Translations under genes and position numbers: made by a program | Shown here: positions 6,192-14,976 of the stretch, piece by piece | Position numbering within the stretch: the stretch's first letter is position 1 | How the letters are laid out: every line of letters starts with the position of its first letter | The notes under the pieces: model-generated | What the model was told of the DNA's origin: nothing | What the model saw: the letters and a program-made list of their open reading frames with translations, nothing else | The model's database searches: none | Origin: Arcanobacterium wilhelmae | Lineage (GTDB): Bacteria > Actinomycetota > Actinomycetes > Actinomycetales > Actinomycetaceae | Length of the DNA stretch: 64,000 bases | Direction: 5' to 3' | Assembly (NCBI RefSeq): GCF_029632765.1 | Contig: NZ_CP121247.1 | Span: 1,364,001-1,428,000, forward strand

Positions 6192-6848
6192 TTAACGTTT
6201 ACGCGTACCCCACGGAAACCGAACGCTATTGGTCGAGGGCTGAATCCACTGCACATCTTGAGCGATCGGTTTCCCTTTGATCCGGCGCTGTGTCGCCCAC
6301 AGCAGATAATCGGCAGCCTGCAACCCCCACGCCGAATCCGAATCCCAAAAACACGGGGTTATTTGTTGAGGCATCTGGTTCACGATATCGACAAATGCAA
6401 CTTTCGCCGATTCTCTAAAGCTTTTCGTCGAGATAGTTGCCAAAACAACGTAAAGGCGGTCTCCGGGAGAAAGCACTTCCGTGCACAAATATTTCAGATG
6501 CAGATATAGCGCCATCTTATATAGACGCGCTTTCCCTTCTTCCTTGACATAACCACATGCATTGTCTTTGCAGAGAAGAGTTGCGTCGAAACTCAATTTA
6601 TGTTGAGCGATGAGCGCAAAGACCTCGCTCCTGGTCGCCCAGGTATCGTTCTTCGCATGAAAGCCGTGAGGAGTAGCAACTCCACGATCTTCCAGAGAGG
6701 CCCTCAGAACATGCGCGTCCCAGATCGCAGATCCGTGCTCCCCGGAATAAATCACCGATCCAAAGCCGAAATATGGAAGCTCATTCCCTCCAGAATGCGA
6801 ATAGTCCGGAGTACCAGTCTCATCAAGATAGATGAAGTAATCAGACAT
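6192..6848 (-). CDS. DUF3800 domain-containing protein
   Basis: This is a 218-aa soluble protein. It begins with an acidic strand, FIYLDETGTPDY (Asp9, Glu10). It ends with a helix bearing LQAADYLLWATQRR, whose Asp is the second conserved acidic position of DUF3800. The family is thought to have a nuclease-like RNase H fold and is frequent in mobile and defence neighbourhoods; its biochemical role is unsettled. The gene stands alone between tRNA-Pro and tRNA-Gly and is clearly lower in GC than its neighbours, which suggests horizontal acquisition at a tRNA hotspot. It has no co-directional partner. Confidence 0.75.
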   Translation of the reverse strand: MSDYFIYLDETGTPDYSHSGGNELPYFGFGSVIYSGEHGSAIWDAHVLRASLEDRGVATPHGFHAKNDTWATRSEVFALIAQHKLSFDATLLCKDNACGYVKEEGKARLYKMALYLHLKYLCTEVLSPGDRLYVVLATISTKSFRESAKVAFVDIVNQMPQQITPCFWDSDSAWGLQAADYLLWATQRRIKGKPIAQDVQWIQPSTNSVRFPWGTRKR

Positions 6849-7068
6849 ATATTAATGGTAACAAACACATTCATACTGTCTATATTCACAGAATAAACAG
6901 CGCATGCGCCATAAGCACACCTCGAGAAAAGGTGGATTGAGTCAAGAAACTTTGAAGGCCATACTCCGCAAAACTGTGGAGCTTTGTAACCAAAACGAGT
7001 GCCGCACACGAGCCTGCGCACCGAATCTATACACCCCCAGAACGGTTGGTGTAACGAGGCAAAAAGAG

Positions 7069-7139
7069 AGCGAGTGACGAGAATCGAACTCGCGTCATCT
7101 GCTTGGAAGGCAGAGGCTTTACCATTAAGCTACACTCGC
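7069..7139 (-). tRNA. tRNA-Gly (anticodon TCC)
   Basis: A minus-strand cloverleaf: acceptor GCGAGTG paired with CACTCGC, anticodon loop CTTCCAA, T-loop GTTCGATTC. It lies about 110 bp upstream of the tracrRNA promoter on the opposite strand. Confidence 0.95.
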
Positions 7140-7245
7140 ATGCTGGCGAACCAGCGTGAACGATTTTAACAGCATTCCGACGCCGGAGCACAACTTGGGC
7201 AGTGATCTACGGCTCACCGACGGTGCGACTCGCACAATATAACAC

Positions 7246-7275
7246 TTGACGTCACGGAAATAGCGGGAATATATT
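7246..7275 (+). promoter_or_regulatory. Promoter of tracrRNA
   Basis: A -35 TTGACG (7246-7251) and a -10 TATATT (7270-7275) are separated by 18 bp. Transcription would start near 7282, exactly at the beginning of the anti-repeat. Confidence 0.65.
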
Positions 7276-7281
7276 TGGAGG

Positions 7282-7360
7282 GAACTAATTCTCAGTAAGG
7301 GTTCTCCGAGTTTGAGATCCTGAATGCTCCATAGAGGCGCCAATGGCGCCTCTATTTTTT
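7282..7360 (+). ncRNA. tracrRNA of the type II-C CRISPR system
   Basis: The anti-repeat at 7282-7295 (GAACTAATTCTCAG) pairs with the first 14-15 nt of the crRNA repeat, with one G-U wobble. It is followed by TAAGG, a small imperfect hairpin around GGTTCTC/GAGATCC, and the segment TGAATGCTCC. The RNA ends in a perfect 11-bp terminator stem (7331-7355) followed by T5. The layout matches the tracrRNA used by Corynebacterium diphtheriae Cas9 as I recall it, including the AGTAAG and TGCTCC blocks. It is transcribed in the same direction as cas9. The 5' end is inferred from the promoter; a longer form starting upstream is possible. Confidence 0.85.
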
Positions 7361-7394
7361 CGCGTGTCGCAAACCTTCTGTAGCTCACGTCACA

Positions 7395-7400
7395 TACAAT
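7395..7400 (+). promoter_or_regulatory. -10 element for leaderless cas9 mRNA
   Basis: TACAAT ends 6 nt before the cas9 ATG and there is no Shine-Dalgarno sequence. Transcription would start at or next to the A of the ATG. No good -35 was seen. Confidence 0.5.
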
Positions 7401-7406
7401 TTCTTC

Positions 7407-10400
7407 ATGCACAATACTTTAGATTTCCTTTGCGGCATTGATGTCGGTTCTAATTCTGTTGGCATGGTTGCCATCGCTGTCGATGGGAGCGGTCTGCCAA
7501 CAAAAATTTTGAACTCCGTGGTGATGATCCATGACGGCGGTGTTGATCCAGAGCAAGCCAAGGCGGCGGTTACGCGCCTCGCAAGTTCTGGCGTCGCGCG
7601 CCGCACTCGCCGCCTCATTCAACGACGCCGGAAGAGGCTCGACCGACTCGACCGGCGAATCGCGAAGCTTGGATGGCCAATTGTCGACCTCGAAAGCTCA
7701 AAAGATCCGTACCTTCCTTGGAACACACGAGCTCAGCTTGTGCGGGAGAAGCTTGAAGGCGACGATCTCAACCGTGCACTGTCCATCGCAGTTCGCCATA
7801 TGGCGCGTCATCGCGGCTGGCGTAGCCCGTACGCAAGCATCGAAAGCTTGTTCACAGAGAAGCCTGCCAGTGCCCAGATGGACACGTACAAGGAGAATGT
7901 GACGAAGCAGAGTGGTGTTGTTTTCGATGAGGATGCCACCCCTGCTGAAGTCGCAGTTGAACTTGGCCTTAACCCGTCGAACCGCTTGCGAAACGCCGCT
8001 GGTGCGAAGTATGGCGCGAAGGCTCTCATCGACGGGAAGTCTGTATCCGGCCAGGACAAGCTCGGCGTGCTCGGCGGCAAGCTGATGCAGTCCGACAATG
8101 CGGCAGAACTAATGAAGATTGGCCGCGTTCAAGGGCTGAGCGATGAGCTTGTGAAAGATTTAATCCGTTGGGTGTTCGAGTCCGAGTCACCGAAGAGCAA
8201 GGCGGGTGAACGCGCTGGTTTCGATGCCCTCCCTGGCCAAGGAAGGAAGCACCGTGCAGAGAAAGCGTCCCTGGAGTTCCAGGAGTTCCGCATCGTTTCT
8301 GTGGTGGCTAACCTTCGAATCGGGCTCGAGGGCGGCGGTAGCCGTCTACTCTCCTCCGACGAGATCGACAGAGTTGTCACTTTCTTGATGAACGATTCCG
8401 GCGACGACGGCGTGACGTGGAACGACGTCGCGCAAGTATTGGGAGTCAGCAGAGGAATGCTTCTCGGTACCGCATCGCTCTCCCCCGAGGGCGAACGCGC
8501 ATCGAGCTTCCCTCCGTCGAACACAACTAATCGTGCGATTTATCGTTCGAAGATCAAAGAACTCACATCGTGGTGGGATGCTGCAGAACCTGAGGAAAAG
8601 TCTGCGATGGTGACCGCACTGTCGAACGCAGACGAACTCAAGGAAGATGCCCCCGGAGCTGAAGCTGTACGGGAGTTCTTGGGAACTTTAGGCGAGGACC
8701 AACTAGGCAAGCTCGACGATGTTTCGCTCCCGAAGGGTCGCGCCGCATATTCGGCAGATTCTCTCGTCAGGCTCACGAAGGTGATGCGCGAAAACCATGT
8801 TGATCTTCATGAGGCCCGAAAGATCGAGTTCGGGGTGGACAATGATTGGACTCCCCCAGCTGATCCGATTGGAAAGCCGGTTGGGAACCCGGCGGTAGAT
8901 CGCGTTCTCAAGATCGTGAGCCGCTGGCTCCTTGCAATTGAGAAGAAGTACGGCACTCCCGCGTCAATCAATATCGAGCATGTTCGTTCAGGCTTTCTCT
9001 CGGAGTCGAGCGTGCGAGAGTACGAGCGCGAGTTGAAGAAGCACCGGGAACAGAATCTGAAACTAGTTGCCGAGATGCATGCGAACCTCGGCATTTCGGG
9101 CGAAGTTCGTAGCTCTGATATCCGCAGATATGCGGCGATCCGTCGGCAAAATTGCCAATGCGCTTATTGCGGGTCAGTGATCACTTACGAATCATCCGAA
9201 ATGGATCATATCGTTCCCCGCAAGGGCGAAGGCTCCACAAACACCCGAGACAATCTGGTGGCAGTTTGCGAGCCCTGTAACAAAGCGAAGTCGAACACTC
9301 CGTTTGCTGTGTGGGCGGAACACACCACGCGCCCAGGAGTGAGCCTGGACGGTGCAATTGAACGCGTGAAGTTCTGGATTGATGAACCGGGCTTGGGTAA
9401 GAAGCAAAACTTCAATTTCCGCAGTGATGTTATTGCCCGGCTGCGTCGCACCTCCGCTGACGAGCCTTTGGATAGCCGTTCCATCGAATCAGTGGCATGG
9501 ATGGCGAACGAACTTCGTGATCGAGTTGAGGCGCATTTCAAACCGGCGGGTACGAAGGTGCGCGTATTCCGTGGTGCAATCACCGCAGCAGCGCGCAAAG
9601 CTTCGGGTTTCGAAGGAAAAGTGGAGCTGATTGGAGGAAACGGAAAGACCCGTTTCGATCGCCGCCATCATGCGATGGACGCATCTGTCATCGCCTTGAT
9701 GCGTCAGTCTGTTGCCCAGGTTTTGGTGGAGCGTGAGAGCAAGCGTCAGGCAGCGTTCCTCACGTCAGACCATAACTCGAATTGGCGAGACTACCGTGGC
9801 AGCTCTACCGAGGCGAAGATCAACTACGGCAAGTGGCTCAACAATATGAATCGGCTCGTCGTACTTTTCAATGCCGCGTTAGCAAACGATGAAATCCCCG
9901 TCATGCAGAATCTGCGGCTTCGGCTGGGGAACTCAACTGCTCACGACGCGACAATCCGTAAGTTTGCAACGAAACGCGTGGGCGATGCATGGACACGCGA
10001 CGAGATTGATCGAGCGAGCACACCTCAGATGTGGGTCGCTCTTTCTCGCGATCCTGATTTTTCAGATACAGACGGGCTCCCCGAGAATCCTTCACGCGAA
10101 TTGCGGATAAAAAATATCTGGTACGCCGCAAACGATGACGTGAAGATCTTGCCGAAGAAGATCGCGGCTATCGCCGTGCGCGGCGGATGGGCCGAGGTTG
10201 GTAGTTCCATTCATCATGCACGAATTTACCGTTTCAAAGGAAAGGGAGGAAAAGAGGCCTACGGAATGATCCGCGTGTTCACGCCCGACCTTGTGAAACA
10301 TCAGACCGAGGATCTTTTCAACGTTCCACTCGGCCCTGAAACTTTGTCAATGCGCGATGCAAAACCAGCAGCTCGCGATGCGGTGCTGAGAGGCAACGCC

Positions 10401-10757
10401 GAATACCTCACGTGGCTGACACCTGGCATTGAGCTTTCTTCGGGGCAAATTAAGTCTTCGAAGCCCGATGCTTTTGGTACCTTCATTTCAAGATTCCCTG
10501 ACACGAGGCGTTGGGTTGTCACAGGATTTGAAACCAACACAATTGTCAACGTTAAGCCACGCTATCTCGCAGTGGAAGGGGCACAAAACTTAAAGCTTAG
10601 TGACGACATCGTGAAGTTCTTGACTCGTGGATGGCGGCCATCTATTGGCGTCTTGACTTCATTACCTGATCTAAGGACCGTAATCCGAACAACGCTTGGC
10701 ACACCAAGACAAGATTCAACACACTTACCCGCTTCAAAGCCAATTTCTGGAGACTGA
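7407..10757 (+). CDS. cas9: CRISPR-associated endonuclease Cas9, type II-C
   Basis: Cas9 is the RNA-guided DNA nuclease that cuts both strands next to a PAM. At 1116 aa it is close to the compact Actinomyces naeslundii and C. diphtheriae enzymes. RuvC-I is GIDVGSNSVG with Asp12. An Arg-rich bridge helix (RRTRRLIQRRRKRLDRLDRR) follows near residues 67-86. RuvC-II is SINIEHVRSG with Glu524. The HNH domain has MDHIVPR with His601, flanked by CAYCG and CEPCN, so this is a zinc-binding HNH. RuvC-III is HHAMDASVIA with His754/His755 and Asp758. All catalytic residues are present, so the enzyme should be active. The start has no ribosome site and is probably leaderless. cas1 follows with 2 bp between. 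Confidence 0.97.
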   Translation: MHNTLDFLCGIDVGSNSVGMVAIAVDGSGLPTKILNSVVMIHDGGVDPEQAKAAVTRLASSGVARRTRRLIQRRRKRLDRLDRRIAKLGWPIVDLESSKDPYLPWNTRAQLVREKLEGDDLNRALSIAVRHMARHRGWRSPYASIESLFTEKPASAQMDTYKENVTKQSGVVFDEDATPAEVAVELGLNPSNRLRNAAGAKYGAKALIDGKSVSGQDKLGVLGGKLMQSDNAAELMKIGRVQGLSDELVKDLIRWVFESESPKSKAGERAGFDALPGQGRKHRAEKASLEFQEFRIVSVVANLRIGLEGGGSRLLSSDEIDRVVTFLMNDSGDDGVTWNDVAQVLGVSRGMLLGTASLSPEGERASSFPPSNTTNRAIYRSKIKELTSWWDAAEPEEKSAMVTALSNADELKEDAPGAEAVREFLGTLGEDQLGKLDDVSLPKGRAAYSADSLVRLTKVMRENHVDLHEARKIEFGVDNDWTPPADPIGKPVGNPAVDRVLKIVSRWLLAIEKKYGTPASINIEHVRSGFLSESSVREYERELKKHREQNLKLVAEMHANLGISGEVRSSDIRRYAAIRRQNCQCAYCGSVITYESSEMDHIVPRKGEGSTNTRDNLVAVCEPCNKAKSNTPFAVWAEHTTRPGVSLDGAIERVKFWIDEPGLGKKQNFNFRSDVIARLRRTSADEPLDSRSIESVAWMANELRDRVEAHFKPAGTKVRVFRGAITAAARKASGFEGKVELIGGNGKTRFDRRHHAMDASVIALMRQSVAQVLVERESKRQAAFLTSDHNSNWRDYRGSSTEAKINYGKWLNNMNRLVVLFNAALANDEIPVMQNLRLRLGNSTAHDATIRKFATKRVGDAWTRDEIDRASTPQMWVALSRDPDFSDTDGLPENPSRELRIKNIWYAANDDVKILPKKIAAIAVRGGWAEVGSSIHHARIYRFKGKGGKEAYGMIRVFTPDLVKHQTEDLFNVPLGPETLSMRDAKPAARDAVLRGNAEYLTWLTPGIELSSGQIKSSKPDAFGTFISRFPDTRRWVVTGFETNTIVNVKPRYLAVEGAQNLKLSDDIVKFLTRGWRPSIGVLTSLPDLRTVIRTTLGTPRQDSTHLPASKPISGD

Positions 10758-10759
10758 TA

Positions 10760-11674
10760 ATGGAGCAGTGGCGAATCCTCGATTGCTCAACGATGCGAGG
10801 GAAGCTCTGCACGAAACGTGGAGCCCTCTCCGTTGAGCGCGAGGATTCGCCACCAGTTCTACTGCCAGTTGCTGATATAGCGGTTGCTCTGATCGGGATC
10901 TCCGTCTCTTTCTCTGCGGCAGTTATCCACCAGCTCGCTAAGCACGATGTTGCAATCGTCTTCTGCGATTGGAAGGGAGTTCCAGAGTCAGCCGCTTACA
11001 GCTGGTCAGAGCATGGTCGTGTCGGTGCCCGCCATCGCGCGCAAGCTTCACTGCCGGAATCTCGCCGAAAAAGCGCATGGGCGCAAATCATTCGTGCGAA
11101 AGTGAAGGGCCAAGCGAACGTACTCGCTAAGGCAGGCTCGCCAAGATCAGCATTGTTGAGGAAGCTCGCCTCCTCTGTACGCTCAGGCGACCCCGCAAAT
11201 GTCGAAGCACAAGCAGCTCGGGCCTATTGGCAAGAACTCTGGGGCGACGAGGGATTCCATCGAATTCCCGGTGGGAATGCTGAAGCTACCGATCCACGTA
11301 ACGCTTATCTTGACTATGCATACACCGTGCTACGTGGGCACGGTATCCGTGCTGTAATCGGTGCCGGCCTCTGCCCGACGCTCGGAATTTTTCATAAAGG
11401 CCGAGGAAACAACTTCGCACTCGTCGATGATCTGATTGAACCGTTCCGCCCCGCAATCGACTCCGCGATTCTGGAACTTAAACCGGATCTTCCGATCGAA
11501 GATCCTCACGTACGCCGAGCACTAGTGGAAGCCTCGTCTCAGACTTTTCTTCAAGACGGCACTACGATCGCGTCAGCATTCGGTGATCTCGCACAGCATT
11601 ACGCTCGCTATGTTGAGGGCGACGTCGATCGGCTGACAGTTCCCCATTGGCGAGGTGATCTCAAGGATGGCTGA
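10760..11674 (+). CDS. cas1: CRISPR-associated endonuclease Cas1
   Basis: Cas1 is the integrase subunit of the spacer-acquisition complex, 304 aa. The metal-binding residues are Glu149 (VEAQAARAYW), His212 (LGIFHKG) and Asp224 (LVDDLIEPFRP). The gene starts 2 nt after the cas9 stop and overlaps the cas2 region, so cas9-cas1-cas2 form one operon. No csn2 or cas4 is present, which places the locus in subtype II-C. Confidence 0.96.
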   Translation: MEQWRILDCSTMRGKLCTKRGALSVEREDSPPVLLPVADIAVALIGISVSFSAAVIHQLAKHDVAIVFCDWKGVPESAAYSWSEHGRVGARHRAQASLPESRRKSAWAQIIRAKVKGQANVLAKAGSPRSALLRKLASSVRSGDPANVEAQAARAYWQELWGDEGFHRIPGGNAEATDPRNAYLDYAYTVLRGHGIRAVIGAGLCPTLGIFHKGRGNNFALVDDLIEPFRPAIDSAILELKPDLPIEDPHVRRALVEASSQTFLQDGTTIASAFGDLAQHYARYVEGDVDRLTVPHWRGDLKDG

Positions 11675-11987
11675 TGGTCCGATGTGGTGCATCGTAATGT
11701 TCGATCTACCAGTAAAAACAAAAGAGCAACGAAAACGATACTCTGATTTCAGGAACATGCTCCTCGACAACGGCTTTGTTCGCGCGCAATACAGCATCTA
11801 CGCAAAGTATTCGCCCTCGGGTGTGTTGGGTCAGCGAGTGATTAGCCTCATCAAGCTCTCCGTTCCTCCTCAGGGCGAGGTTCGTATTATGCATATCACA
11901 GATCGTGCGTGGGCAAATACAGTCCGATTTTTCAATTCCGCAGAAGAGAAACCGGAAGAAACACCTGAGCAACTCGCGTTTTTCTAA
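11667..11987 (+). CDS. cas2: CRISPR-associated endoribonuclease Cas2
   Basis: Cas2 is the structural partner of Cas1 in adaptation, 106 aa from the ATG at 11667. The N-terminal beta strand CIVMFDLPVKT carries the conserved Asp. The body has FRNMLLDNGFVRAQYSIYAK, typical of type II Cas2. The frame also opens at a GTG at 11655, but the ATG has a GAGGTG site 9 nt upstream and matches the family N-terminus. It overlaps the cas1 stop by 8 nt, implying translational coupling. It is the last cas gene; the array begins 50 bp further on. Confidence 0.93.
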   Translation: MADGPMWCIVMFDLPVKTKEQRKRYSDFRNMLLDNGFVRAQYSIYAKYSPSGVLGQRVISLIKLSVPPQGEVRIMHITDRAWANTVRFFNSAEEKPEETPEQLAFF

Positions 11988-12020
11988 ACGAAAATTAGCT
12001 ACATTTCCTTTAGATTCCAA

Positions 12021-12058
12021 GGAAAAGTCTTCCCCCTGAAGTCTATCAGGGGGAAGAC
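12021..12058 (-). terminator. Terminator of the crRNA precursor formed by the last repeat
   Basis: On the minus strand the last repeat supplies GTCTTCCCCCTGA and the unique flank supplies its perfect 13-nt complement. The 6-nt loop is TAGACT, and TTTTCC follows. This makes an intrinsic terminator that stops array transcription before it runs antisense into cas2. Confidence 0.75.
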
Positions 12059-14317
12059 GAACTAATTCCCAGCGTGTCGCCCTTGATGCGGAAAGTGATG
12101 GGAAGTCTATCAGGGGGAAGACGAACTAATTCCCAGCAGCTTCTGCAATCTACCCATGATCTCGCGAAGTCTATCAGGGGGAAGACGAACTAATTCCCAG
12201 CGCGACGCAGGATGGCGCGTCGGATACTGGAAGTCTATCAGGGGGAAGACGAACTAATTCCCAGCTGCTGGGCGTGTGCAGCGTTATGTGGTGGAAGTCT
12301 ATCAGGGGGAAGACGAACTAATTCCCAGCCACTTTACCGGGTGCGCTTGACCAGAGCGAAGTCTATCAGGGGGAAGACGAACTAATTCCCAGCTGCCGCA
12401 GTGTCGGTTGACCGTGCCGCTGAAGTCTATCAGGGGGAAGACGAACTAATTCCCAGCCCGGTGATGGTTGCGAATCCGGCTGTGAGAAGTCTATCAGGGG
12501 GAAGACGAACTAATTCCCAGCTCATTCACGAACTGGAGATTCAGGCCAAGAAGTCTATCAGGGGGAAGACGAACTAATTCCCAGCGGATTCACACTCACC
12601 GCCTCGTTGCGTTGAAGTCTATCAGGGGGAAGACGAACTAATTCCCAGCACAAAGAGCTCGCGAAGCGCGCAGGGCTGAAGTCTATCAGGGGGAAGACGA
12701 ACTAATTCCCAGCGAGCCGGTCGAAGGCTTCCTCGATTTCGGGAAGTCTATCAGGGGGAAGACGAACTAATTCCCAGCGGGTAGCCGTCACGGTCGCGTT
12801 CGGTACGAAGTCTATCAGGGGGAAGACGAACTAATTCCCAGCATCCGGCCCATGCGTGTTTCTGCGACCTGAAGTCTATCAGGGGGAAGACGAACTAATT
12901 CCCAGCCGCGTCGCCAGCGGTCTTTCCCTCCACAGAAGTCTATCAGGGGGAAGACGAACTAATTCCCAGCGACGAGGTGGTAGGCGCCGATGAGGTGGGA
13001 AGTCTATCAGGGGGAAGACGAACTAATTCCCAGCCCTGATTTTGATGGCGAGTGGGATTACAGAAGTCTATCAGGGGGAAGACGAACTAATTCCCAGCAC
13101 GTCGCAATTGTGGGATGCGAACGTGCGAAGTCTATCAGGGGGAAGACGAACTAATTCCCAGCCCGTCTGCTCGTGGTGGTCGTGTGACAAGGAAGTCTAT
13201 CAGGGGGAAGACGAACTAATTCCCAGCAGATCGCTGTGATTGATGCGCTCATTTTGAAGTCTATCAGGGGGAAGACGAACTAATTCCCAGCGATGTTTCC
13301 GCGCTCCAGTTGGAGTATGGAAGTCTATCAGGGGGAAGACGAACTAATTCCCAGCTGTGACGCGGATGCGGTGAACGCCGTAATGAAGTCTATCAGGGGG
13401 AAGACGAACTAATTCCCAGCCGCGTTGATTTTGACACTGCGACGATCGGAAGTCTATCAGGGGGAAGACGAACTAATTCCCAGCTCTTCGTGTCGGTCAC
13501 GCGCGTGAATCCGAAGTCTATCAGGGGGAAGACGAACTAATTCCCAGCTTAGGCCGCTGGAGTTTTTCGGTGTTGGAAGTCTATCAGGGGGAAGACGAAC
13601 TAATTCCCAGCTTCTCGAGTGTGGCAAGCATCGTGGGCCGAAGTCTATCAGGGGGAAGACGAACTAATTCCCAGCAGCGGGTTGCATTCAGTGTGGCTAG
13701 ATCGAAGTCTATCAGGGGGAAGACGAACTAATTCCCAGCTACAGGGTCGCACGCCTGGCGAGGTTGAGAAGTCTATCAGGGGGAAGACGAACTAATTCCC
13801 AGCCTGTCGTGCGTAAGGCCGGCGTGAATATGAAGTCTATCAGGGGGAAGACGAACTAATTCCCAGCTCAGTGCAGGAATTGGAGCTAGCGCAATGAAGT
13901 CTATCAGGGGGAAGACGAACTAATTCCCAGCGGGTCGGACGTGTTGGAGAACTTGATGGGAAGTCTATCAGGGGGAAGACGAACTAATTCCCAGCACCGG
14001 CGTTGTGTTGGCGATCGTATCGGGAAGTCTATCAGGGGGAAGACGAACTAATTCCCAGCGGGACGGGAGGCTCCAAGCGCGCGTGCAGGAAGTCTATCAG
14101 GGGGAAGACGAACTAATTCCCAGCAAGCCGGCCTCTTCCACATCGAGGTTCGGAAGTCTATCAGGGGGAAGACGAACTAATTCCCAGCCGCGTCAGAGAC
14201 CCCGGTGCGCACCTCGGAAGTCTATCAGGGGGAAGACGAACTAATTCCCAGCGAACCCGTCGTAGCTTGGTTGATCGGATTGAAGTCTATCAGGGGGAAG
14301 ACGAACTAATTCCCAGC
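12038..14317 (-). CRISPR. Type II-C CRISPR array: 36 repeats, 35 spacers
   Basis: 36 copies of a 36-bp repeat were located one by one. On the plus strand it starts GAAGTCTATCAGGGGG and ends GAACTAATTCCCAGC. All looked identical, with no degenerate end repeat. Spacers are 28 nt (29 cases), 29 nt (5) or 27 nt (1). The tracrRNA anti-repeat fixes the crRNA sense as the minus strand, where the repeat begins GCTGGGAATTAGTTC and ends TGATAGACTTC. That end is an extended -10 element. This is the same repeat family as C. diphtheriae type II-C. The array converges on cas9-cas1-cas2. Spacer targets cannot be identified here. Confidence 0.99.
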
Positions 14318-14456
14318 TGTGGCGCGCACATACCCCAGCGAACGATTTTGGCTTCCCGCCGAGTCCCTCCCTCAAGAAGATGCCCGAGTCTAGATTTGCC
14401 GAGCAGCCCGCGGTATCCTTGGAAGTGTTCTCAGACGTAACCGATATGAGGTTCTC
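14318..14456 (-). other. Probable CRISPR leader / array-TA spacer
   Basis: These 139 bp lie at the upstream end of the array in crRNA sense, so new spacers should be added here. Immediately outside the first repeat is GCTGGGGTATGT, loosely like the repeat start. No convincing -35/-10 pair was found. A GAGG site at 14448-14451 already belongs to the next gene. Confidence 0.45.
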
Positions 14457-14738
14457 GTGCGTGTTCTCATTCATCCCCATGCGTTCAAACACGGGCTATC
14501 CCCTGATCAGATTCTTGCTGCATTCACAACAGGAATTGACACAGGAATTGTGCGTAGCCGCGATCGCAATACAGACCCGCCACGATTCGCCTCGATCGGT
14601 TTCGACAACGAGGGCAGAGCGATCGAATTTGTGTGCGCAAAACTCGTGGACGAGACGGTCCTGATTTTTCACGCAAACTATCTCACGGCAGGCTTCAGAA
14701 AGGAGTACCGCAATGGCATACACCGCAGCAACCGGTGA
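14457..14738 (+). CDS. BrnT-like toxin of a toxin-antitoxin pair
   Basis: This is a 93-aa basic protein starting at GTG, with GAGG 5 nt upstream. It has AFKHGLSPDQILAAF near the N-terminus. It ends in GRAIEFVCAKL...ILVFH-type strands and LTAGFRKEY. That order (KHG motif, R..IGFD..GR strands, terminal Arg/Lys/Tyr helix) is like BrnT, a RelE-fold ribonuclease toxin. The next gene overlaps it by 26 bp and encodes a ribbon-helix-helix protein, matching the toxin-first brnTA order. The family call is by pattern only; another RelE-like toxin family is possible. Confidence 0.55.
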   Translation: MRVLIHPHAFKHGLSPDQILAAFTTGIDTGIVRSRDRNTDPPRFASIGFDNEGRAIEFVCAKLVDETVLIFHANYLTAGFRKEYRNGIHRSNR

Positions 14739-14976
14739 ACAATTTACCGACGACGACGTGCGCCGCTGGGCTCAGGAGGCCGAGAATGGTTTCCCAGACT
14801 CCACCGTCGAATGGGTACAAGGCCGCGCATGGGAGGGTAAGCGCCAACCGCTCACAGCTAAGAGCGTGCGAGCCCCTCAGGCAGTATGGAAGCTGGTCGC
14901 GGAAAAGGCGGCACTGGAAGGCATCACCGAATCAGAGTGGGTCCGCAATGCGTTGATCCGCGCCGCCCTCGCCTAG
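14713..14976 (+). CDS. BrnA-like ribbon-helix-helix antitoxin
   Basis: An 87-aa protein with an acidic N-terminal half (GEQFTDDDVRRWAQEAE) and a C-terminal RHH-like segment. The latter is a short strand KSVRAPQAVW followed by two helices ending EWVRNALIRAAL. It overlaps the toxin gene by 26 bp and has AAGGAG (14699-14704) 8 nt upstream of its ATG. By analogy with BrnA it would bind the toxin and repress the operon. Its stop codon abuts the stop of the convergent downstream gene. Confidence 0.6.
   Translation: MAYTAATGEQFTDDDVRRWAQEAENGFPDSTVEWVQGRAWEGKRQPLTAKSVRAPQAVWKLVAEKAALEGITESEWVRNALIRAALA

Follow-up and report, generated by a model that had tools for sequence, protein, structure and literature searches.

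The end of the leader and the newest repeat of a type II-C clustered regularly interspaced short palindromic repeat (CRISPR) array in Arcanobacterium wilhelmae are predicted to fold together into an intrinsic terminator, and the predicted leader-repeat stem covaries between species. The array belongs to a CRISPR-Cas locus at positions 7246-14317 of the window, by which we mean the whole stretch of 64,000 nucleotides (nt) that was analysed (contig NZ_CP121247.1, positions 1,364,001 to 1,428,000). The locus is ordinary as a CRISPR-Cas locus, and the covarying leader-repeat terminator is the part of it that is worth specialist attention. Based on the comparisons described below, we consider it rather probable that leader and newest repeat jointly terminate the transcripts of the array. 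The elements concerned are the following, in coordinates of the window.

11988-12037, no strand assigned: leader, between cas2 and the first repeat.
12027-12058, minus strand: leader-repeat hairpin, terminator-like, with an 11-bp stem (12027-12037/12048-12058), 13 pairs when two extra pairs are included, then TTTTCCTTGG.
12038-14317, minus strand: CRISPR array of 36 repeats and 35 spacers, whose repeat begins 5'-GCTGGGAATTAGTTC and pairs with the trans-activating CRISPR RNA (tracrRNA).
12040-12048, minus strand: extended -10 element TGATAGACT of the first repeat; all other repeat copies carry it too.
7246-7275, plus strand: promoter-like site of the tracrRNA, TTGACG-18 nt-TATATT, a match to the consensus.
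7281-7360, plus strand: predicted tracrRNA, consisting of an anti-repeat (7281-7295), TAAGG, a stem-loop, TGAATGCTCCA, an intrinsic terminator (7331-7355) and a T run.

The anti-repeat mismatches the repeat at 2 of 15 positions and pairs with the minus-strand repeat, therefore the CRISPR RNAs (crRNAs) are predicted to be encoded on the minus strand and made towards cas2, which the initial annotation of this DNA had missed, as it had the -10 element of the repeats and the complementarity between leader and repeat. The leader's final 11 bases, 12027-12037, match bases 11-21 of the first repeat, 12048-12058, as a perfect inverted complement; on the minus strand, the 13 pairs of the stem, 8 of them G-C, are followed by TTTTCCTTGG including TTTT, which is the form of an intrinsic terminator. 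The hairpin has the most pairs of the 11 terminator-like sites between 6900 and 14500 and the tracrRNA terminator comes second, the number of such sites being unremarkable (8.5 +/- 3.0 expected by shuffling). The 60-nt minus-strand RNA 12014-12073 folds at -29.1 kcal/mol (z -3.68), an energy equalled by none of 200 shuffles, whereas the repeat by itself is not more stable than its shuffled versions (z +0.73). The main stem spans nt 16-28 of the repeat and leaves out the tracrRNA-pairing nt 1-15.

Leader and first repeat were compared across 40 type II-C systems, taken from 31 of the 39 Cas9-bearing genomes of the family and from 9 further loci, which together hold 32 distinct repeats in 11 genera. 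Own leaders paired with their own repeat core at a mean of -17.3 kcal/mol against -12.5 kcal/mol (standard deviation 0.49) for permuted leaders, and none of 20000 permutations was as good (n=32); with 60 nt of leader the values were -18.9 and -13.7 kcal/mol, again with 0 of 20000. Eleven one-per-genus systems had been picked by hand after the leaders were viewed, and the test was repeated with random picks, which gave p <= 0.002 in 500 of 500 draws of one system for each of the 11 genera. A duplex of at least 8 pairs within the last 30 nt of the leader was found in 26 of the 32 systems, and 17 reached -15 kcal/mol or lower, compared to a mean of 6.8 and a maximum of 12 after permutation. Each of the pairs TA, AT, CG and GC is represented at repeat positions 17-21, counted from the junction. 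The effect fades away from the junction: in 13 systems with both array ends available, permutations as good as the true pairing numbered 0 of 20000 for the last 40 nt of the leader and 1 of 20000 for the last 30 nt. The trailer gave 904 such permutations when tested with the repeat core and 1514 with the whole repeat, the first spacer gave 1709 and leader positions -60 to -31 gave 1715, so that the control regions remained at p 0.045 to 0.086.

Some systems did not enter this comparison: G123 was dropped with its array masked with N, as were G187 and G197 with oppositely oriented arrays; G066 and G070 (no array in the DNA examined) and G012, G080 and G198 (partial or split matches) were left out, and L011 and L230 had no array within reach. 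The repeat boundary was set by hand in 17 of the 40 systems. L002 and G086, and likewise L003 and G065, are apparently the same genomes, and the doubles were removed by the repeat filter. In the two loci L222 and L221 (G197 and G187, genus g10), the first array past cas2 is opposite in orientation and is preceded by repeat-like pieces.

On the crRNA strand, 16 of the 32 systems carried a stem followed by a T run, compared to 4 on the other strand, and shuffling of the leaders predicts 0.9; counted by genus, the crRNA strand carried it in 11 of 11 and the other strand in 3. Fourteen systems had it on the crRNA strand only and 2 on the other strand only (binomial p 0.004, the systems being non-independent). 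Thirteen of the 16 crRNA-strand terminators reach into the repeat and 3 lie inside the leader; in G060, the stem takes few repeat bases.

The array itself agrees with the initial annotation in that all 36 repeats are identical over 36 bp; its spacers are 28 nt (29 of 35), 29 nt (5) or 27 nt (1) long. By likeness to other type II-C arrays (PMC12080349, which like the other articles marked "excerpts" below was consulted in part), the leader side is presumably the end at which spacers are acquired, and in several relatives mutated repeats stand at or near the far end of the array. The oldest repeat of the window (14282-14317) is unmutated, and the terminator scan, which reaches to 14500, lists no minus-strand site upstream of it. 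In all 32 distinct systems, the crRNA-strand repeat carries the motif TGNTANNNT near its 3' end, where an extended -10 promoter borne by the repeat would be expected to show it, a count to be read with the relatedness of the repeats in mind and for which a chance level was not computed. By analogy with other type II-C arrays (PMC12080349, excerpts), the -10 elements of the repeats may act as promoters. In L004 (Corynebacterium, about 12466-12561), the final 16 repeat nt on the crRNA strand pair with the leader, and the pairing runs on into a hairpin of the leader's own to give a 24-pair stem followed by CTTTTTCT.

How such a junction might work can be outlined. The extended -10 element in each repeat would start a transcript in the neighbouring spacer, and the transcripts would run leftwards, towards cas2, so that each of them contains the leader-proximal and hence newest spacer. 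At the leader, transcription would stop where the newest repeat and the last 11 leader bases fold as an intrinsic terminator, a stem with TTTT. Since a new spacer enters between the leader and the first repeat with duplication of that repeat, the terminator would be rebuilt after each acquisition; and since the main stem does not include the part of the last repeat that pairs with the tracrRNA (GCTGGGAATTAGTTC), maturation of the newest crRNA would remain feasible. More tentatively, we propose that actinobacterial type II-C arrays might possess a self-renewing terminator made half of leader and half of newest repeat, the same inverted repeat marking the site of Cas1-Cas2 insertion; starts in every repeat and a common stop at the leader would then place the newest spacer in every transcript. 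If this is true, the repeat, the tracrRNA anti-repeat and the leader must evolve together.

The bias of T runs to the crRNA strand favours termination as the predicted role in about half of the systems, that of the window included. Termination as the sole function was rejected, because 16 of the 32 systems are without a crRNA-strand terminator by the rule used, among them G136, G124 and G152, whose stems rank with the longest; for systems without a T run, there may be a second role or a role of the DNA at the insertion site. Further observations count against the terminator reading. In the window, the minimum-energy fold also pairs repeat nt 4-8 with bases past the T run, a pairing that would compete with the tracrRNA if the stretch beyond the T run were transcribed; the leader-repeat pairs in the fold number 17 against 14.2 in shuffles (p 0.47; energy p 0.04), and the leader ranks only 5th of 32 for its own repeat because other C-rich leaders also fit this repeat. 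Across the systems, the own duplex stays weaker than -15 kcal/mol in 15 of 32, own leaders outdo the average over other genera in just 21 of 32, the leaders of G180, G190 and G072 barely pair (-2.0, -2.7 and -5.0 kcal/mol), and the number of leader-repeat pairs in folds gives a weak signal (13.7 own, 9.9 shuffled, 10.3 swapped). Outside Actinomycetota, 3 of 4 plasmid-borne type II loci showed no leader-repeat pairing; for Pasteurella multocida a duplex of -19.5 kcal/mol was obtained (p 0.007, mononucleotide shuffling), and the fold prefers a hairpin internal to the leader. Nor did duplex energy calculated per strand separate an action in RNA from one in DNA, as it was no better on the crRNA strand (Wilcoxon p 0.90), and whole folds differed slightly between strands (p 0.038, 20 of 32), whereas the T runs favour RNA.

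This leaves room for an inverted repeat that acts in the DNA, as a docking site for Cas1-Cas2 with its arms in the leader and the repeat core and with the RNA hairpin as a by-product. Such a site would be compatible with a terminator, and it would account for a stem that occurs with or without a T run, that has no strand bias in duplex energy, that lies at the insertion site with an effect fading elsewhere, and that in some genera is long and encloses the junction with a loop of just 3-7 nt. We nevertheless regard it as rather unlikely, given that T runs are four times commoner on the crRNA strand than on the other, and that the leader barely pairs in G190, whose array has 18 repeats, so that integration there seems independent of the stem. 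The hairpin might instead shape the newest crRNA or the end of the precursor without terminating transcription, by protecting the 3' end or by controlling how RNase III cuts the last repeat. A leader-repeat hairpin is reported to aid maturation of the first crRNA in type II-A systems (PMC13187072, excerpts), and a main stem on repeat nt 16-28 that leaves nt 1-15 for the tracrRNA would suit this role; with the T runs left unexplained and nt 4-8 also paired in the minimum-energy fold, it appears improbable. Least likely of all, in our judgement, is complementarity as a mutational by-product without selection on structure, produced by template switching that perfects palindromes or left as a relic inverted copy of the repeat. 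The leaders of G027, G136 and L004 do contain a long inverted piece of the repeat that includes the -10 region, but random sets of one system per genus (11 genera) show own leaders fitting better than foreign ones, each of the four pair types is seen at five positions, and the T runs are biased to one strand.

The remainder of the locus was examined in the same way, and the extent given by the initial annotation, 7246-14317, proved correct. Its protein-coding features are as follows.

7407-10757, plus strand: cas9, 1116 aa, type II-C, with a zinc-type HNH domain.
9159-9278, plus strand: zinc site of the HNH domain, C585/C588 and C621/C624 around H601, invariant in 119 of 119 sequences and aligned with AnaCas9.
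10760-11674, plus strand: cas1, 304 aa, type II.
11667-11987, plus strand: cas2, overlapping cas1, 106 aa from ATG, or 110 aa from GTG at 11655.

NCBIfam, Pfam and PADLOC identified the three proteins as Cas9, Cas1 and Cas2; the type II form was called for Cas1 by NCBIfam and for Cas1 and Cas2 by PADLOC. Both cas1 and cas2 are intact, as had been claimed, in open reading frames (ORFs) of 304 aa (10760-11674) and, counted from the GTG, 110 aa (11655-11987). The genes are cas9, cas1 and cas2 only, with a 2-bp gap, then an overlap, then 50 bp to the array, and this spacing leaves no room for a further gene, so that neither csn2 nor cas4 lies between cas9 and the array. The tracrRNA predicted by the initial annotation is likewise supported by a promoter-like site, an anti-repeat matching at 13 of 15 positions and a terminator at 7331-7355. 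The promoter-like site, with 10 of 12 matches, is the best of 5 in 6900-14500 (3.2 expected by shuffling), and it is promoter-like by its match to the consensus, which is not proof. In 29 of 34 loci, a few genomes being counted twice, cas9 is preceded at a distance of 102-264 bp by a similar anti-repeat and tail; a 30th match, in G112, is 1.1 kb away and was left uncounted. Judging from these predicted parts, the locus is almost certainly a complete type II-C CRISPR-Cas immune system of the AnaCas9/CdCas9 lineage.

That lineage is indicated by full-length sequence and fold similarity and by the zinc-type HNH domain. The RuvC and HNH catalytic residues that had been named for Cas9 (D12, E524, H601, H755 and D758) are in place, and together with D600, N625 and the cysteines C585, C588, C621 and C624, they show no variation across the 119 aligned sequences, of which the window's is one. 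The same positions match AnaCas9 (4OGC) in the PDB alignment, which bears out the two CxxC pairs described for the HNH domain by likeness to the zinc-binding A. naeslundii enzyme, and the intact ORF of 1116 aa confirms the compact size. In a tree of 65 proteins, the window's Cas9 clusters with those of Trueperella pecoris (64% identity) and Actinotignum urinale (58%) with a Shimodaira-Hasegawa approximate likelihood-ratio (SH-aLRT) support of 100, and stands away from its own genus, namely the enzymes of Arcanobacterium haemolyticum, A. buesumense, A. hippocoleae, A. ihumii and A. bovis. A literature search that included the main text of PMC7606464 found no characterised Cas9 in the Trueperella pecoris/Actinotignum urinale clade. 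Cas9 itself is one more compact orthologue in a large known lineage.

For the protospacer-adjacent motif (PAM), the initial annotation had proposed a search with the 35 spacers; it was run in part and gave no convincing protospacer and hence no PAM. Against 95 loci (1.12 Mb) the best matches had 6 mismatches, 2 compared to 0 for reversed spacers, with 8 against 8 at 7 mismatches and 90 against 45 at 8 mismatches. When the 35 spacers and 168 of relatives were searched against 164 mostly prophage or viral loci (2.1 Mb), none matched at 5 or fewer mismatches and 8 matched with 6, compared to 0 for reversed spacers. The one match of a window spacer among these 8, spacer 29 in L064, was judged to be chance, as the ORF resembles a membrane transporter. 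In IMG/VR, spacers 1-4 searched by their exact 20-nt ends and spacers 16 and 17 searched by degenerate patterns gave 0 matches in 6 of 6 scans; this collection-wide search took in 6 of the 35 spacers, and its targets did not include the host genome.

The comparison with AnaCas9 and CdCas9 that had been suggested was also carried out, and the nearest solved structures were AnaCas9, CdCas9 and AceCas9. AnaCas9 (Actinomyces naeslundii, another host genus; PDB 4OGC/4OGE) has D and K at the positions of the window's E1042 and R1074. Of the six PAM-contact residues of CdCas9 (Corynebacterium diphtheriae, PDB 6JOO; PMC6488586, excerpts), R1042 alone is kept, as R1074 of the window, whereas F1011, K1015, R1017 and L1046 are replaced by E, I, N and R and P1043 stands opposite a gap; with its contacts mostly changed, the CdCas9 PAM NNRHHHY was rejected as not transferable. 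The PAM triad E1044/R1088/R1091 of AceCas9 (Acidothermus cellulolyticus, PDB 6WBR), an enzyme with the PAM NNNCC (PMC7733487, excerpts) and an overall identity of about one third, aligns with E1042/R1074/R1077 of the window. An AceCas9-like NNNCC is therefore a guess from this triad, and a doubtful one: about 1.5 E/R/R triads among 119 sequences are expected from column frequencies and one, that of the window itself, was seen, so that the agreement is a lead only and could be chance. The start of the repeat, GCTGG, would mismatch NNNCC, in line with self-avoidance.

The locus adjoins tRNA-Gly, and a relative of its Cas9 occurs in 2 of 9 Arcanobacterium genomes, the host's included. The genes tig, tRNA-Pro and tRNA-Gly also stand together in G002, G003 and G006, and the stretches examined in these three genomes held nothing like the CRISPR region of the window; in G002, the nearest relative, about 5.7 kb without a match to the window follow tRNA-Gly at the position of the CRISPR locus (L249, 11431-17158). 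We infer that the locus is likely to have arrived horizontally beside the tRNA gene. A DUF3800 protein (6192-6848, minus strand, E 3e-11) is encoded between tRNA-Pro and tRNA-Gly, and since the two tRNA genes are about 30 bp apart in G002, this gene also looks inserted. Directly past the array, two small overlapping ORFs (14457-14976, plus strand) look like a toxin-antitoxin pair; they match DUF4258 (E 0.004) and small DNA-binding families, all below cut-offs. The type II cas genes and array of Pasteurella multocida NZ_CP113523 likewise have a DUF4258 gene and a CopG antitoxin after them.

If leader and newest repeat terminate transcription, the hairpin would be a simple and testable answer to how transcription of type II-C arrays ends when every repeat is thought to be a promoter, and it could explain the favouring of the newest spacer. 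It would tie the evolution of the leader to that of the repeat, and an array or leader transferred without its surroundings may be missing a functional part. A literature search, with most subscription journals outside it, found no title dealing with hairpins at the end where type II-C arrays acquire spacers. Leader-repeat hairpins of Cas13 systems are described in an article that also brings up those of type II-A (PMC13187072, excerpts); the hairpins of types II-A and VI (Liao 2022, as reported in the excerpts of PMC12080349 and PMC13187072) lie upstream on the transcript and block an extraneous crRNA. As in the window, the leader there pairs with the repeat next to it and covers a portion of that repeat. 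In contrast, the hairpin of the window is not at the 5' end on the repeat of an extraneous crRNA; it stands at the 3' end of the predicted transcript, where it takes in the repeat of the newest spacer and has a T run behind it. A type II-C study of 2025 (PMC12080349) says that no leader-repeat hairpin was identified, and its excerpts concern the region upstream of the oldest repeat, at the other end of the array. According to the same excerpts, many type II-C arrays have a Rho-independent terminator in that region, which insulates the array, whereas none is listed for the window up to 14500. Those terminators and the hairpin described here are alike in their intrinsic form and in lying near type II-C arrays, but the latter is found at the leader end of the array, and the repeat supplies half of it.

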